Positions 17,604 through 24,772 of a DNA stretch of 64,000 nt are shown piece by piece; position 1 is the stretch's first letter; the number at the start of each line of letters is the position of its first letter. A model generated the notes under the pieces. That model saw only the letters and a program-made list of their open reading frames with translations. It ran no database searches and was not told where the DNA came from. The position numbers and the translations under genes were made by a program. Source of the DNA: Streptomyces gelaticus (GTDB lineage: Bacteria; Actinomycetota; Actinomycetes; Streptomycetales; Streptomycetaceae). The stretch spans positions 186,001 to 250,000 of the forward strand of contig NZ_BMTF01000007.1 of assembly GCF_014649535.1 (NCBI RefSeq), written 5' to 3'.

Positions 17604-18956
17604 TCACAGCAGCGCCCGGTGGCGCGCCCCGTACGAACGCCAGGGCCGCCACCGGTCCGCCTCGGGCCGCCCCTCCGGGTCCACGTCCGGGTCACCGAGC
17701 GCACGCATCCGGATGAGCGCCGCGGCTGCCGGGGAGATCCCCGGCAGCCGCAGCAGCGCCTGTTCGGCCTCGTCGCGGTCGGCCCCGGCGTCGAGCCGTA
17801 TGTCCCCGTCGGCGAGCGCGCCCGCCAGCGCCCGCAGCTCCGGCCCGTCCGCCGCACCGGCCAGCTCACCCGGCTCGGGGAACACATGCGTCAGCCCGCC
17901 GCAGGGCACGTCGAGCACCTTCCCGTACCTCTCCACCAGCCGTTCCGCCGCGTCCCGGCCCACCAGCGTCCGTACGGCGAACTCCTCCGGGTCCGCGGCA
18001 CCCGGCGAACGCAGCCCGGGGCGAGCGGCGACGCCCGACGCGAGTCGGGGGTCGGCGCCGAGCCGCTCGTCGACGGCGTACGGATCGGCGTCGAGGTCGA
18101 AGAGCCGCCGCAGCCGCTGGACGGCCGTGGTCAGATCCCGCAGGTCCGTGAGGTGGATCCGGGCGTCCAGCCAGGACCCGGCGGACCGCTCGTCGACGGC
18201 CACGATGCCCGTGCCGTACGGAAGGCGCAGGGTACGCCGGTACGTACGGGCACCGGCCGCACCGCTGACCTCCTCGATCCGGGCGACCGTCTCGGCGGCC
18301 AGGAGATCGAACACCTCGCGGGCCGCGTACGGCCCCCGGTGGGCGAGCCGCAGCGGGATCCCGGTGGTCCGCGCCTCCCGGACCGCCGCTCCCAGCCCCG
18401 TCCCTGCCTCGGCCCGCAGCGCACTCGGCGTACGGGCGTAGATCTGCCGGATCGTGTCGTTGAACTGGCGCACACTGGCAAAGCCCGACGCGAAGGCGAT
18501 CTCCGTCACGGGCAGCCCGGTCGTCTGGAGCAGCACGCGTGCGGTGTGGGCCCGCTGGGCGCGGGCCAGCGCCACGGGGCCGGCGCCCAGCTCGGCGTTG
18601 AGCTGCCGCTGCACCTGGCGTGAGCTGTAGCCGAGCCGGTGGGCGAGACCGGGCACGCCCTCCCGGTCGACCACACCGTCGCCGATCATCCGCATGGCCC
18701 GGCCCACCACGTCGGCCCGGACATTCCAGTCGGCCGAGCCGGGCACGGCGTCGGGGCGGCAGCGTCGGCAGGCCCTGAAGCCGTTGCCCTGCGCGGCGGC
18801 CGCGGTCGGATAGAAGCGGACGTTCTGCCGCTTGGGCGTGACGGCGGGGCAGCTCGGCCGGCAGTAGATGCCGGTCGTTTCGACGGCGAAGAAGAAGACC
18901 CCGTCGAAACGCGCGTCGCGGCTGCTCACCGCCTCGTACCTGGTCCGTTCGTCCAT
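17604..18956 (-). CDS. Ada/AlkA-type DNA repair fusion: Ada zinc domain, AraC HTH, 3-methyladenine glycosylase
   Basis: A 450-residue bifunctional protein. Residues 1-75 are an Ada Zn-binding domain with four Cys (YCRPSC and CRRCRP), whose Cys may accept methyl groups from phosphotriesters. Residues about 85-180 are an AraC-type HTH (GLAHRLGYSSRQVQRQL; VTEIAFASGFASVRQFND). Residues about 190-450 are AlkA-type: an N-terminal beta domain, then a HhH-GPD region (LLRLPGISPAAAALI) with the conserved Asp near DVDPEG. It would sense alkylation and excise 3-methyladenine. No O6-methylguanine methyltransferase PCHR motif is present. An inverted repeat sits 23 bp upstream of the ATG. Confidence 0.9.
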   Translation of the reverse strand: MDERTRYEAVSSRDARFDGVFFFAVETTGIYCRPSCPAVTPKRQNVRFYPTAAAAQGNGFRACRRCRPDAVPGSADWNVRADVVGRAMRMIGDGVVDREGVPGLAHRLGYSSRQVQRQLNAELGAGPVALARAQRAHTARVLLQTTGLPVTEIAFASGFASVRQFNDTIRQIYARTPSALRAEAGTGLGAAVREARTTGIPLRLAHRGPYAAREVFDLLAAETVARIEEVSGAAGARTYRRTLRLPYGTGIVAVDERSAGSWLDARIHLTDLRDLTTAVQRLRRLFDLDADPYAVDERLGADPRLASGVAARPGLRSPGAADPEEFAVRTLVGRDAAERLVERYGKVLDVPCGGLTHVFPEPGELAGAADGPELRALAGALADGDIRLDAGADRDEAEQALLRLPGISPAAAALIRMRALGDPDVDPEGRPEADRWRPWRSYGARHRALL

Positions 18957-18978
18957 CACACCGTCCAGTGTGTGGCAC

Positions 18979-19057: not shown

Positions 19058-20230
19058 CTACCGGAACCGGCCGCGCTTGGCGTCCATGGCGGCCCGGCCC
19101 TCGGCACCCTTGCGCTTCCAGCCGCGCAGGATCTCCGAGCGCACCCGGGCGTCGGTCTTGGCGGCGATGCGCTGGTTCTCGCGCAGCAGCTTGCGGAAGC
19201 TGTCGAGGCGCCGTGCGTGCAGCGAACCGTCCTCGATCGCGGCGAGCACGGCACAGCCGGGCTCCGAGTCGTGGGCGCAGTCGTGGAACCGGCACTGCTC
19301 GGCCAGTTCCTCGATCTCCGAGAAGACCTGGCCTACGCCGGCCTCCGCGTCCCAGAGCCCGACCCCGCGCAGTCCGGGGGTGTCGATCAGCACGCCCCCG
19401 GAGGGCAGGACCAGCAGATTGCGGGTGGTGGTGGTGTGCCGGCCCTTGCCGTCGACATCGCGCGCGGCCTGCACCTCCATCACGTCATGGCCGAGCAGGG
19501 TGTTGGCGAGGGTCGACTTGCCCGCACCGGACGCCCCGAGCAGCACGCTCGTACCGCCCGAGACGATGGCGGAGAAGACATCGATCCCCTCCCCCGTGGC
19601 GGAACTGACGGTCAGCACCTGCACACCGGGGGCGACGCCCTCGATGTCCTGGACGAGGTACGACAGCGTGACGGTGTCCGGTACCAGGTCGGCCTTGGTC
19701 AGCACCACGATCGGCTCGGCGGCACCGTCACCGGCCGGCCCGCCGTCCCGCAGCAGCGCGGCACCGCTGGAGCTGGACATGGCGAGCGCGAGGAAGCGCT
19801 CCACCCGCCCGAGGTCGAACTCGACGGCGAGGGAGAGGCAGATGACGATGTGGTCCACGTTGGTGGCGAGCACCTGGCCCTCGGAGCGCTGCGAGGACGT
19901 CGAGCGGACGAAGGCGGTACGCCGCGGCAGCAGTGTCCGGACGAACTGCGGATCACCGTCGGGGTCGACGGCGACCCAGTCGCCCGTGCAGACGATCCGC
20001 ATCGGATCGCGCGGGACGACGAAGGCGGTGTCGGCGCGGACCGTGCCGTGCGGGGTGACGACATCGCACTGCCCGCGGTCCACCCGCACCACACGTCCGG
20101 GCAGCAGTCCCTGCTCGGCGTACGGTGCGAACTCGGCCGCCCACGCGTCGTCCCAGCCGTACGGGGACAGCGGGTGCGACGCGGACGGGCCCTGAAGAGA
20201 GAAAGCGGACGGAAAAGACGGGAAAGACAA
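19058..20230 (-). CDS. rsgA: Ribosome small-subunit-dependent GTPase A
   Basis: A circularly permuted GTPase that acts in 30S subunit maturation. The OB-fold is at residues about 35-110, then the permuted G motifs: G4 VLTKADLV, G1 LLGASGAGKSTLANTLLG, G3 DTPGLRG, and a C-terminal zinc motif CRFHDCAHDSEPGC, matching the family Cys/His set. The TTG at 20230 was chosen because GAAGGG lies just upstream and the Ser/Phe-rich start leads directly into HPLSPYGWDDAW. The frame stays open to 20269. A promoter at 20439-20468 and a 23-codon upstream ORF precede it, giving a leader of roughly 200 nt. Confidence 0.88.
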   Translation of the reverse strand: MSFPSFPSAFSLQGPSASHPLSPYGWDDAWAAEFAPYAEQGLLPGRVVRVDRGQCDVVTPHGTVRADTAFVVPRDPMRIVCTGDWVAVDPDGDPQFVRTLLPRRTAFVRSTSSQRSEGQVLATNVDHIVICLSLAVEFDLGRVERFLALAMSSSSGAALLRDGGPAGDGAAEPIVVLTKADLVPDTVTLSYLVQDIEGVAPGVQVLTVSSATGEGIDVFSAIVSGGTSVLLGASGAGKSTLANTLLGHDVMEVQAARDVDGKGRHTTTTRNLLVLPSGGVLIDTPGLRGVGLWDAEAGVGQVFSEIEELAEQCRFHDCAHDSEPGCAVLAAIEDGSLHARRLDSFRKLLRENQRIAAKTDARVRSEILRGWKRKGAEGRAAMDAKRGRFR

Positions 20231-20235
20231 GGGAA

Positions 20236-20249
20236 ACCCTTCAAAGGGT
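20236..20249 (-). promoter_or_regulatory. Short hairpin covering the rsgA ribosome binding site
   Basis: On the minus strand ACCCTT-TG-AAGGGT is self-complementary, and its right arm contains the GAAGGG ribosome binding site of rsgA. It could mask initiation unless opened. The arms are only 6 bp with a tight loop, so this is suggestive only. Confidence 0.35.
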
Positions 20250-20293
20250 GGCCCCGGCAACGCGCACACGGGCGCGGGGAGTTACGGAGTAGG

Positions 20294-20365
20294 TCAGCCG
20301 GCGACCACGGGGGTGGGAACGATGCTCTTCGGGTTATGGGCAGCGCCCATCGCAGCGACAGTCAT
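20294..20365 (-). CDS. Small upstream ORF (23 aa) in the rsgA leader
   Basis: Encodes a 23-residue peptide beginning MTVAAMGAAHN and ending PTPVVAG. Its ATG follows AGGAGGTGAGG, one of the strongest ribosome binding sites in the window. It lies inside the transcript predicted from the promoter at 20439-20468, ending 63 bp before the rsgA start. A 30-codon hydrophobic frame overlaps it on the plus strand (20322-20414), so only one of the two is likely to be real. Promoter direction and the binding site favour this one. I do not recognise the peptide family. It may be a leader peptide controlling rsgA. Confidence 0.55.
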   Translation of the reverse strand: MTVAAMGAAHNPKSIVPTPVVAG

Positions 20366-20438
20366 CACGATCCTCACCTCCTGGTTCAAGCACGGGACCG
20401 ACAGGGGCGGTTGATCTCCGCCGTCCGGAACAGTGGAC

Positions 20439-20468
20439 ACCATAGTCCGTCCGCACCGGACGGCTCAA
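20439..20468 (-). promoter_or_regulatory. rsgA: Sigma-70 type promoter for the rsgA leader, with an internal inverted repeat
   Basis: On the minus strand TTGAGC (20468-20463) and TATGGT (20444-20439) are 18 bp apart, close to the principal-sigma consensus. The spacer is almost filled by the inverted repeat CCGTCC-N5-GGACGG at 20447-20463, a good position for a repressor. Confidence 0.6.
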
Positions 20469-20604
20469 CACATTAAAACGAAGCCGCGGGCAGCCGCCGG
20501 GCGGAGTGGATTCGGGCCGTGTCCACCAGAGATATCCGGCTATATCCCTCGATCAGGTGATGTTCATTCACAACGACCGGTCCGGGGCCGTTATGGTGCC
20601 GAGC

Positions 20605-21105
20605 ATGACCTCACCCCAGACCTCCACCGGCACGTTCGCACAAGCCCAGTTGGGCACGATCACACTGATCGGGTGGAGCGGCGAACACCCCGCCGACGGC
20701 CACGACGTCGCCTTCCTTCTCGTCTACTCGCTGGGCGACGGCACGGACGGCCCCGCGGCCGGCGAGGCCGCCATGCGCGCGGCCCTGGAACGGAGCGGAC
20801 TTCCTGTCGGCAGCAGTCCGGTGTACGCGGCCGAGAACCCGGGTCTCCCGGTGAAGCTGCTCGTCCAGGCCGGCCAGGCGGTCCTGACGATGCCTCACTT
20901 CACGGCGCAGTACCCTGCGCCGCCGGAGTGGCTGGCGGCAGCCGGTCAGCGGGGCGAGGTGCACACGATGTTCGCCACCCGTCCGTGGCCCCAGGGCGCA
21001 CCGGGCGGGCCGGTGAGCGAGGAACTGCTGCGTTCCTTCGCGGCCGACCCGGAGGTCATCACGACCGCCGCCCACTGCGTCCTTCCGGTACGCAGCCTGG
21101 GCTGA
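20605..21105 (+). CDS. DUF5949-like protein
   Basis: A 166-residue soluble protein with no membrane segments: LGTITLIGWSGEHPADGHDV near the N terminus and VHTMFATRPWPQG further on. It resembles a Streptomyces-restricted family of unknown function (DUF5949, recalled, not searched). ATG 20605 and an in-frame ATG at 20593 are both possible; neither has a strong ribosome binding site. Confidence 0.7.
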   Translation: MTSPQTSTGTFAQAQLGTITLIGWSGEHPADGHDVAFLLVYSLGDGTDGPAAGEAAMRAALERSGLPVGSSPVYAAENPGLPVKLLVQAGQAVLTMPHFTAQYPAPPEWLAAAGQRGEVHTMFATRPWPQGAPGGPVSEELLRSFAADPEVITTAAHCVLPVRSLG

Positions 21106-21240: not shown

Positions 21241-21651
21241 TCAGCCGTTGGCGACGCCGTTGCCCGAGAGCACCGGGATGTCGTCGACGAGGTGCGACAG
21301 CGGCTCGTCACCCTTGGCCTGGGTGGAGTTCTCGGCGCACTGCTGGTTCTGCGGCGAAGCCAGCACGTTGGCGTCCTGGACCGCGACCGGCACCAGCACA
21401 CCGACGAGCGAACCGGCGTTGGCCTTGAGCGGCAGACCGACGCAGGCCTTGTTCAGCGTGCCCTGGACGAGCTGGACCTGCGGGCTGCCGTCCCCCCGGG
21501 TCACGCTGTTGCCGAACTCGTCCACGGCGCCGTTTCCGTTGACCGACGTGGTGCCCCCGTCATTGCCGATCGCCATGGCCGCGGGGGCCGCTGCGGCGGA
21601 CAGACCGACCAGGGACACGGCCACTGCTGCGCCGGCCATCATCTTCTTCAT
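21241..21651 (-). CDS. Rodlin (first of three)
   Basis: A secreted 136-residue structural protein of the rodlet layer on aerial hyphae and spores. Residues 1-28 form a signal peptide (KKMMAGAAVAVSLVGL, AMA cleavage site). The mature part has the rodlin signature IGNDGGTTSVNGNG, a central region with Cys in NKACVGLP, and SPQNQQCAENSTQAKGDEPLS near the end, with two Cys in the mature chain. ATG 21651 follows GAAAGGTGA; a GTG directly upstream at 21654 is the alternative. It resembles RdlA/RdlB of S. coelicolor, but I cannot assign which. Confidence 0.92.
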   Translation of the reverse strand: MKKMMAGAAVAVSLVGLSAAAAPAAMAIGNDGGTTSVNGNGAVDEFGNSVTRGDGSPQVQLVQGTLNKACVGLPLKANAGSLVGVLVPVAVQDANVLASPQNQQCAENSTQAKGDEPLSHLVDDIPVLSGNGVANG

Positions 21652-21770
21652 CACGCTTCACCTTTCAAAGCGTCCCGTTGTGGAACGTACTGATCAACCC
21701 ACTACGGAAGCATCGGTTCCGAAATACCACTCAAAAGGGTTCGATCCAGCATGAGTTCGACCATTTCCGA

Positions 21771-22223: not shown

Positions 22224-22634
22224 CTAGTTGTTGCCGGCGCCGTTGCCGGACAGGATCGGGACGTCGTCCAGGATGTGCGAGAGGGCCTCGTCACCCTTGG
22301 CCTGGGTGGAGTTCTCGGTGCACTGCTGGTTCTGCGGCGAGGCCAGGACGTTGATGTCCTGGACCGAGACCGGAACGACCCCGAGGACCGAACCGACGTT
22401 GGCCTTGGCCGGCAGCGCGACACAGGGCTTGTTGAGCGAACCCTGGATGAGCGCGAACTGCGGGCTCATGTCGCCGTGGGTGGTGGAGTTGCCATACGAC
22501 TGGACGGCGTCGTTGCCGTTGACCGACGTCGTGCCGCCGTCATTGCCGATGGCCATGGCCTGCGGGGCGATCGCGGCGGAGACGCCGACGATCGAAGCAG
22601 CGACAGCTGCCGAGGCCATAATCTTCTTGATCAT
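22224..22634 (-). CDS. Rodlin (second of three)
   Basis: 136 residues, with the same layout as its neighbours: signal peptide to about residue 28 (QAMA site), IGNDGGTTSVNGND, NKPCVALPAKANVGS and SPQNQQCTENSTQAKGDEALS. ATG 22634 follows AGAAGGGC. It probably assembles with the other rodlins and chaplins in the surface rodlets. Confidence 0.92.
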   Translation of the reverse strand: MIKKIMASAAVAASIVGVSAAIAPQAMAIGNDGGTTSVNGNDAVQSYGNSTTHGDMSPQFALIQGSLNKPCVALPAKANVGSVLGVVPVSVQDINVLASPQNQQCTENSTQAKGDEALSHILDDVPILSGNGAGNN

Positions 22635-23899: not shown

Positions 23900-24301
23900 T
23901 CAGCTGTTGCCGGCACCGTTGCCGGAGAGCACCGGGATGTCGTCCAGGACGTGCGACAGCGGCTCGTCGCCCTTGGCCTGGGTGGAGTTCTCGGTGCACT
24001 GCTGGTTCTGTGGCGAGGACAGCACGTTGACGTCCTGGACCGCGACCGGGACCAGGCCGGCGAGCGAGCCGACGTTGGCCTTGGCCGGCAGGCCGACGCA
24101 GGGCTCGTTCAGGCTGCCCTGGACCAGGCCGAACTGTGGGCTGCCGTCACCGTGGGTCTCGGCGTTGCCGAACGACTGCGAGGCTCCGTTGCCATTGACC
24201 GAGGTCGTACCGCCGTCGTCGCCGATGGCCATGGCCTGCGTCGCGCCCAGACCGAGGATGGAGGCGGCAACGGCACCCGCAGCCAGAACCTTCTTGATCA
24301 C
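23900..24301 (-). CDS. Rodlin (third of three)
   Basis: 133 residues. The signal peptide starts IKKVLAAGAVAASILG with a QAMA site, and the mature part carries IGDDGGTTSVNGNG, NEPCVGLPAKANVGS and SPQNQQCTENSTQAKGDEPLS. GTG 24301 follows AGAAGGGTT. A first-frame ATG at 24379 would place extra residues before the signal peptide. It is separated from the other two rodlins by the chaplin gene. Confidence 0.92.
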   Translation of the reverse strand: MIKKVLAAGAVAASILGLGATQAMAIGDDGGTTSVNGNGASQSFGNAETHGDGSPQFGLVQGSLNEPCVGLPAKANVGSLAGLVPVAVQDVNVLSSPQNQQCTENSTQAKGDEPLSHVLDDIPVLSGNGAGNS

Positions 24302-24772
24302 GATTAACCCTTCTCGTACTGAATGCCCCGTACCGGAGCCCCCTGCCCAACTCGCCGCCGGGCGTTTGGTTCTCTCCATTCACCCGAATGCCCATCGGTG
24401 CGTACAGCAGTACGAAACGGCGCCTCGCGAGTGCGCGGACGGAATCGGTCCGCCCTGCCACTTCCCCGCCCCACAGCCATTGTCCGCTCGTCGAGTTGCG
24501 CATCTCTGTGCGCCGGACGGGTTCGAGTCGACCTGGGCTCGTACTCCATTCGTGTGGTCACACAATTTCCACGACCTTTCGAGTTTCCTCAACAATTCCT
24601 TCTCGTTATGAGTGACACAAGCGTGCAGGTTCGGGCGCTCGGCTTCCCGTCCGCCGCTTGCCGAGTCATGCACGGGCGCCGCCGGGGTGGCCTCCCGGCG
24701 GACTCCGCACCGGCCTGATGAATGAACAGCGAGCGTTCTGCTCGCACGGAATGGCCTAAGAAGGGGCAACCA
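24302..24772. other. Divergent upstream region between the third rodlin and the long chaplin
   Basis: This 471-bp stretch has lower GC than its surroundings, especially at 24540-24612. The overlapping open frames lack good codon usage or binding sites and I do not call a gene. It must contain the promoters of both developmental genes. I could not place -10/-35 elements with confidence. Confidence 0.5.

Follow-up and report, generated by a model that had tools for sequence, protein, structure and literature searches.

The question raised by this locus is why a gene for a ribosome-assembly GTPase, rsgA, should be preceded by a short upstream open reading frame (uORF) with a ribosome binding site of its own and by a hairpin able to mask the Shine-Dalgarno (SD) sequence of the gene itself. 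The window, by which we mean the whole stretch of DNA analyzed, comprises 64,000 nt of Streptomyces gelaticus (GCF_014649535.1, NZ_BMTF01000007.1, positions 186,001-250,000), and all coordinates are relative to it. The leader occupies about 200 nt ahead of rsgA on the minus strand, and every element named in the initial annotation is present (Table 1). The uORF indeed has a very strong ribosome binding site, AGGAGGTGAGG, which is conserved in relatives, and the SD-masking hairpin said to carry the rsgA GAAGGG is present as the palindrome ACCCTTTGAAGGGT (20249-20236, minus strand). This hairpin is real, but it is one of two competing pairings; the other, between the 3' end of the uORF and the segment preceding the rsgA SD, had been missed. 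Read from its ATG, the uORF encodes the 23-residue peptide MTVAAMGAAHNPKSIVPTPVVAG. An in-frame GTG (20368-20366) sits one codon 5' of the ATG and is probably the actual start, because at six of 109 loci this codon is TTG or GTG and is followed by a codon other than ATG, which leaves it as the only possible start. The uORF stop and the rsgA start are 63 nt apart (41-81 nt in 108 leaders), and this gap holds a G+C-rich hairpin and then GCCGGGGCCACCCTTTGAAGGGTTTCCCTTG, which runs into the rsgA start. The whole window leader folds only slightly better than its shuffles (z = -1.16; 27/200), in a fold that draws on unconserved upstream bases. On the plus strand, a hydrophobic frame of 30-33 codons (20313-20414), antisense to the uORF, was considered as a type I toxin; it has no Pfam match and only a weak, meaningless NCBIfam match (E = 0.084), and was dropped because the uORF and stems of the minus strand account for its bases.

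Table 1. Features of the rsgA leader, in window coordinates; segments B to F are lettered in the order of transcription
Feature	Coordinates	Strand	Remarks
Diverged WblC/WhiB7-type box TTTAAT	20472..20477	-	3 nt upstream of -35; 3 of 6 positions match GAAAWY by hand (motif as given in the available text of PMC7157823)
-35 element TTGAGC	20463..20468	-	Position kept in near relatives
-10 element TATGGT	20439..20444	-	18 nt from -35; predicted transcript start ~20432
uORF SD AGGAGGTGAGG	20372..20382	-	Near-perfect SD; GGAGGTG invariant in 100/100 aligned leaders
uORF	20294..20368	-	GTG start 20368-20366 or ATG 20365-20363, stop TGA 20296-20294; 23-24 codons
Hairpin GGGC-GCT-GCCC within uORF	20338..20348	-	At least 99% of cells paired in 100 leaders; codons 6 and 10 vary in amino acid, paired base kept
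Segment B, possible partner of uORF SD (stem P1)	20309..20316	-	Weakly supported; 93% of cells paired, but 14-31% of shuffled partners also pair, depending on arm length
Segment C, final uORF codons GTGGTCGCCGGC	20297..20308	-	Pairs with D: 99.4% of cells, 100 leaders
G+C-rich spacer hairpin between C and D	20261..20276	-	CGCG-type arms of variable length in most A1 rows by eye; missing or different in some
Segment D GCCGGGGCCAC	20248..20258	-	Partner of C or, via its 3' end, of the rsgA SD
Segment E, rsgA SD GAAGGGT	20236..20242	-	Pairs with D (98.7% of cells) or F (91.4%)
Segment F (CCCTT)	20229..20233	-	Overlaps rsgA start codon; supported in rsgA2 leaders, not in methyltransferase leaders
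rsgA paralog, RsgA GTPase	19058..20230	-	390 aa, TTG start (20230-20228); PF03193, E = 3.9e-41

The gene behind the leader had been taken as the ribosome-assembly rsgA in general, and this requires correction. Its product contains the RsgA GTPase domain (PF03193, 141.2 bits against a cut-off of 30), but the genome carries two RsgA genes, and the window copy is the second, stress-type paralog (here rsgA2) rather than the housekeeping copy adjoining aroA. The latter starts 3 nt after the EPSP synthase (aroA) ORF and therefore cannot hold a leader between aroA and itself. Lee et al. 2020 (PMC7157823) name SCO6149 and SCO5211; from the order of naming, the gene order, and annotation, we infer that SCO6149 is the activated RsgA gene with the window gene as its counterpart, and that SCO5211 is the neighbor of aroA. 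We note two features of the surroundings. An Ada-type regulator fused to an AlkA N-terminal domain lies downstream of rsgA (17604-18962, minus strand; Pfam). Three other minus-strand frames (21241-21654, 22224-22634, and 23900-24379) encode similar small, apparently secreted proteins that resemble rodlins; the one that was scanned has no Pfam match.

The leader is well conserved. Its DNA (20230-20480) has matches at E<=1e-4 in 155 of 199 genomes of the genus, most of which span only the stretch between the rsgA start and the approximate position of the uORF SD. We read 110 loci: 30 that the leader search returned as loci, among them the window, and 80 chosen from its matches, with the remaining matched genomes outside the sample. 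An rsgA N terminus was found at 109 of these, and at all 109 the best-scoring small frame belongs, by eye, to the same family: 54 frames have 23 codons, 46 have 24, six have 25, two have 22, and one is frameshifted near its end (L017). An alignment (A1) of 100 of the 109 leaders, with nine near-duplicates (judged by eye) left out, has gaps of whole codons inside the uORF in every row except L017. With the covariance model built from it (R1), matches at E<=0.001 were obtained in 177 of 199 genomes of the genus, a count in which location before rsgA is not confirmed for each match. In Streptomycetaceae, matches at E<=0.01 occur in 76 of 121 genomes, representing 10 of 17 genera; four of these have E values above 0.001, and one (G235) lies elsewhere than at rsgA. 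At class level, 17 of 197 genomes are matched at E<=0.1, 15 of them within the genus. The first of the two outside it (L275, from another family, E = 0.012) has a uORF, MAVAVAAAVVRNVRSVLISRDLG, before an RsgA-like frame and strongly complementary C and D segments; the second (L276, E = 0.084) is partial. The C-terminal part of the RsgA-like frame at L275 reads oddly. A scan of 19900-20700 against Rfam 15 gave no match at E<=1. Since the uORF and the SD-masking hairpin are conserved, the leader very likely acts in cis on an rsgA gene.

This type of leader is not confined to rsgA; it belongs to a wider family found ahead of several kinds of gene. R1 also finds leaders at genes other than rsgA, and in the window's own genome a homologous uORF leader (L266; C1:249277-249443) precedes a methyltransferase-acetyltransferase fusion. 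A related gene is present in this genome and in 65 of 120 others, in many of which only the acetyltransferase part is found. Among 31 loci with a gene of this type (L277-L307), 30 have such a leader (picked by motif and read by eye), and a strict rule recognized the uORF in 19. A second model (R2), built from those 30 methyltransferase-type leaders, finds the window leader in return (E = 3.9e-6). A motif search gave matches in 53 of 150 genomes, with one match in the reversed control; 30 loci examined from it include 13 at rsgA2, 14 at MTase-GNAT genes, one at another methyltransferase gene (L314), and two chance matches (L310 and L333), which were rejected as family members. Ten further R2 matches were read (L375-L384). 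Five of them (L376, L377, L379, L380, and L382) lie before additional RsgA paralogs (rsgA3) in four other Streptomyces genomes, and their leaders have the same layout with other C and D letters and with uORFs that do not end in glycine. Four of these paralogs share 50-53% identity with the window protein across 342-381 residues, and that of L377 is 47-61% identical in two short stretches. Leader-like uORFs also precede stand-alone acetyltransferases at L381 (by Pfam) and L383 (by position), L384 is L314 again, a double methyltransferase, and no gene was assigned to L375 and L378. Judged by sequence, the family appears to precede rsgA2, more RsgA paralogs, and methyltransferase-acetyltransferase, stand-alone acetyltransferase, and methyltransferase genes.

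Conservation and computation support mutually exclusive pairings of D, with C on the one hand and with the main SD (E) on the other. Over the whole structure, 96.1% of 2997 cells are paired in the rsgA2 leaders, compared to 38-60% when the partners are slid; for C:D, the values are 99.4% in the 100 rsgA2 leaders and 94.2% in 30 methyltransferase leaders. Taken by themselves, the rsgA2 leaders show modest covariation because most pairs hardly vary: 13 cells are changed on both sides, versus 6.0 in shuffles (0/500), with no excess of pairs with a double change (3 versus 2.7; 294/500) or of pair types (22 versus 22.6). In the methyltransferase leaders, nine C:D cells are changed on both sides, versus 4.0 in shuffles (3/500). 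The best evidence at the sequence level that C:D is real comes from L376, L380, L384, and L275, where C and D differ in letters yet are complementary; both C GGGTCTCGTC with D GGCGAGACCC in L376 and C GGGACCTCGGC with D GCCGGGGTCCC in L275 are pairings spelled differently from that of rsgA2.

The native D also outperforms its shuffles, exceeding the shuffled mean as the partner of C in 108/108 rsgA2 and 18/19 methyltransferase leaders and as the partner of E (the D:E duplex) in 97/108 and 17/19. E:F exceeds it in 100/108 rsgA2 leaders and in 4/19 methyltransferase leaders, where this pairing is unsupported. Minimum-energy folds starting just before C contain C:D in 108/108 rsgA2, 19/19 MTase-GNAT, and 5/5 rsgA3 leaders, and once C is removed, at least two of the same D bases pair with E in 87/108, 17/19, and 5/5, respectively; in L384, no D base is common to both pairings. 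Two features mark translational attenuators: a uORF that precedes the regulated gene and has a strong SD of its own, which is present here, and mutually exclusive pairings, one of them on the main SD, which are seen here at the level of conservation and computation. The energy of a local D:E hairpin lends no support, the D-plus-E stretch folding no better than with D shuffled (below in 56/108 and 6/19). Two further ideas were set aside. A segment-swap test between families gave no clean distinction between native and foreign partners (in the rsgA3 comparison and in two comparisons based on a single locus, a foreign D was an equal or better partner than the native one), and stem P1, between the uORF SD and its own late codons, is only weakly better than shuffles.

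We consider it probable that the leader is a ribosome-mediated translational attenuator, in which full reading of the uORF lowers rsgA2 expression and early failure of its translation raises it. The architecture is well supported, in that the element is conserved, is constrained at the RNA level, and forms the C:D stem, whose effect on SD accessibility is seen in computation; uORF translation, the direction of the switch, the inducing condition, and the translational nature of the response are inferred. Transcription would begin some 64 nt ahead of the uORF, and in many relatives would do so from a promoter of the WblC (antibiotic-stress) type, and the uORF, with its near-perfect SD, would be translated at once. 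The final uORF codons (C) would be able to pair with D, just before the rsgA SD (E). Ribosomes reaching the end of the uORF would cover C, and because C is then held away from D, D would pair with and mask E and rsgA translation would go down. If ribosomes are absent or stall early, as with an antibiotic, starvation, or too few working 30S subunits, C would take D, E would become easier to reach, and rsgA2 would be made. The identity of the peptide would be irrelevant, and what counts would be that the frame is being read. P1, if real, would keep new ribosomes from starting on the uORF after the RNA has been completed.

A different role for the same stem is that of a transcription attenuator, in which C:D and the G+C-rich hairpin form a terminator or a Rho-dependent pause that is relieved by uORF ribosomes, in the manner of wblC. 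The long, G+C-rich C:D stem with its inner hairpin would suit such a role, but no terminator-like site or intrinsic terminator was found between the uORF and rsgA in the window, by a scan that misses terminators without a T tract; in Streptomyces, terminators often lack such a tract. Moreover, D is complementary to the rsgA SD, for which a terminator would have no need, and the logic would be reversed for a stress gene. Although wblC and are5sc are described as cases of uORF attenuation in the available text of PMC7157823 and PMC12421871, we regard termination as a doubtful explanation here.

The second alternative concerns the peptide. Conservation of the small frame at the amino acid level was the check put forward with the initial annotation, and in the strict sense it fails, with nonsynonymous differences outweighing synonymous ones (pN 0.287, pS 0.145; 100 uORFs of 23-24 codons, 1500 random pairs). 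The frame itself is kept upstream of rsgA in other Streptomyces, but most of the apparently conserved residues correspond to RNA-paired bases. Conservation at codon positions 1, 2, and 3 is 0.78, 0.79, and 0.91, the third value partly reflecting the G+C bias of the genus (position-3 G+C 0.82). Codon 6 is NNG in 100/100 uORFs and codon 10 starts with C in 99/100, their amino acids vary, and the paired bases of these two codons close the hairpin GGGC-GCT-GCCC. The first base of codon 22, the sole unpaired position of the C:D stem, varies freely. As read from these alignments, what is conserved in the uORF is the RNA and not the peptide.

These patterns bear on an arrest-peptide attenuator, in which the nascent peptide, whether or not a drug is present, would halt its ribosome at a set codon and the stall would remodel the leader, as happens in erm systems. 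Such a mechanism would use a short, strongly initiated ORF whose length hardly varies, placed just before a translation-related gene, and the uORF has an apparent motif, M(A/T)V...GAA(R/H)..K.I..T(S/P)V..G. Purifying selection on the peptide, which marks arrest-peptide leaders, is nonetheless absent, pN exceeding pS; residues 4-6, 11, 12, 14, 16, and 17 vary widely, and most of the constant residues follow base pairing. The methyltransferase and rsgA3 leaders share the RNA layout, but their peptides differ, some lacking the final G. At the level of sequence, the lack of purifying selection argues against a peptide-specific stall, which we hold to be improbable. Of the earlier proposal of leader control over a ribosome-assembly GTPase, the conserved leader with its uORF and masking hairpin stands, conservation of the peptide in the strict sense does not, and the C:D partner is to be added.

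Under the favored attenuator with its C:D and D:E pairings, blocking of C should make the rsgA SD less accessible, and in our computations it does. The cost of opening the stretch from SD to start rises with C blocked (+2.0 kcal/mol, 98/108 rsgA2 leaders; +3.0 kcal/mol, 18/19 methyltransferase leaders), and the same rise is found in 7/7 other loci, a set without shuffle control. Shuffling D abolishes the effect, both in rsgA2 (+1.97 to -0.26 kcal/mol in 38/39; 40 of the 108 leaders sampled) and in the methyltransferase leaders (+3.20 to -0.04 kcal/mol in 17/17). In all computed states, most of the rsgA2 SD is paired (mean unpaired 0.07-0.15), so the switch would be a change of degree: equilibrium SD occupancy shows no switch, which is seen in the opening cost only, and no difference remains when a wider 30S footprint is taken (mean -0.51, positive in 51/108). 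The coupling of C:D to SD accessibility is thus a computed one.

The same calculation bears on plain translational coupling, in which ribosomes ending at the uORF stop would open the structure or reinitiate at rsgA, such that the uORF raises expression. The 63-nt spacing (41-81 nt in the 108 leaders) and the masking of the rsgA SD in free RNA could be read in this way, but a gap of this length is long for direct reinitiation, and the SD opens less easily when C is blocked in the way expected of a terminating ribosome (98/108 and 18/19); we consider coupling unlikely. A small protein acting in trans, or conservation incidental to a protein-binding RNA such as one for RsgA autoregulation, would fit the short conserved ORF and the binding of RsgA to the 30S subunit, but is very improbable given that there is no purifying selection on the peptide and that the leader also precedes non-RsgA genes.

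The promoter proposed at 20439-20468 has its elements located as claimed, at a site conserved by position, but a generic sigma-70 scan of the window leader finds no promoter there. The inverted repeat in its spacer is real in the window, but by eye is not kept in L009, L010, L011, and L013. The predicted transcript start uses the -10 offset of 7-8 nt given in the available text of PMC7157823, from which we also took the WblC motif, GAAAWY-N3-TKGMNN-N16..19-TANNNT. Of 109 leaders, 53 contain, within the 220 nt before the uORF SD, a WblC-type promoter that scores 12-13 out of 13, compared to 0/109 in control DNA further upstream and a rate of 0.000 in shuffles; some relatives have GAAAAC or GAAATT boxes at the equivalent place. 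In the methyltransferase leaders, the motif was found at no locus (0/19) at 12/13 or better. The best score in the window is 10/13, at a chance site near the proposed promoter; the proposed promoter, with its box TTTAAT, likewise scores 10/13 by hand. By sequence, the promoter site appears to be of the WblC type in about half of the relatives read, and rsgA2 probably belongs to an antibiotic-stress circuit.

More tentatively, and with less confidence than we place in the attenuator itself, these leaders could form a class of peptide-independent sensors of translation capacity, which gauge ribosome loading and uORF completion and switch on ribosome-maintenance genes upon failure. For rsgA2, this would amount to feedback of 30S supply or function onto a 30S assembly factor, atop transcriptional control by WblC. 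Attenuators with uORFs are already known from Streptomyces wblC and ARE-ABCF genes, as described in the available text of PMC7157823, PMC12421871, and PMC9290621. A full-text literature search, covering mostly open-access papers without supplements, returned no description of an rsgA leader element. The earlier claim of undescribed control thus holds for the element within that literature, but not for uORF attenuation itself, which is known in Streptomyces. What we describe is an apparently undescribed regulatory element, widespread in Streptomycetaceae with one case beyond, before a second ribosome-assembly GTPase; it shows that the conservation of a uORF can lie in the RNA rather than in the peptide, and it connects uncharacterized genes for methyltransferases and acetyltransferases with control of this kind.

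Among the closest known systems are the translational attenuators of the erm/cat type, in which a leader ORF with its own SD is followed by mutually exclusive stems, one holding the main SD. The rsgA2 leader shares the leader ORF with its own SD and the exclusive stems, one with the main SD, but in erm/cat systems a stall frees the SD by blocking its partner, whereas the predicted OFF signal for rsgA2 is a ribosome at the uORF end, and its peptide is without purifying selection. The canonical rsgA downstream of aroA belongs to the same protein family (PF03193) as the window gene and differs in having no room for a leader. With the wblC/whiB7 leader of Streptomyces and Mycobacterium, as described in the available text, the rsgA2 leader shares the principle of an actinobacterial uORF leader answering translation inhibition; set side by side from description, wblC uses transcription attenuation, whereas the scan of the rsgA2 leader found no terminator, and it is the SD itself that competes for pairing. 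In the ARE-ABCF genes are5sc and tiaA of Streptomyces, uORFs with ribosome binding sites lie in alternative stems and answer ribosome-targeting drugs, according to the available text of PMC12421871. These leaders differ from that of rsgA2 in their very short uORFs (MLV and MVGDDDISG), the terminator/antiterminator arrangement proposed for them, and the gene family they precede, and they resemble it as Streptomyces uORFs set among alternative stems.
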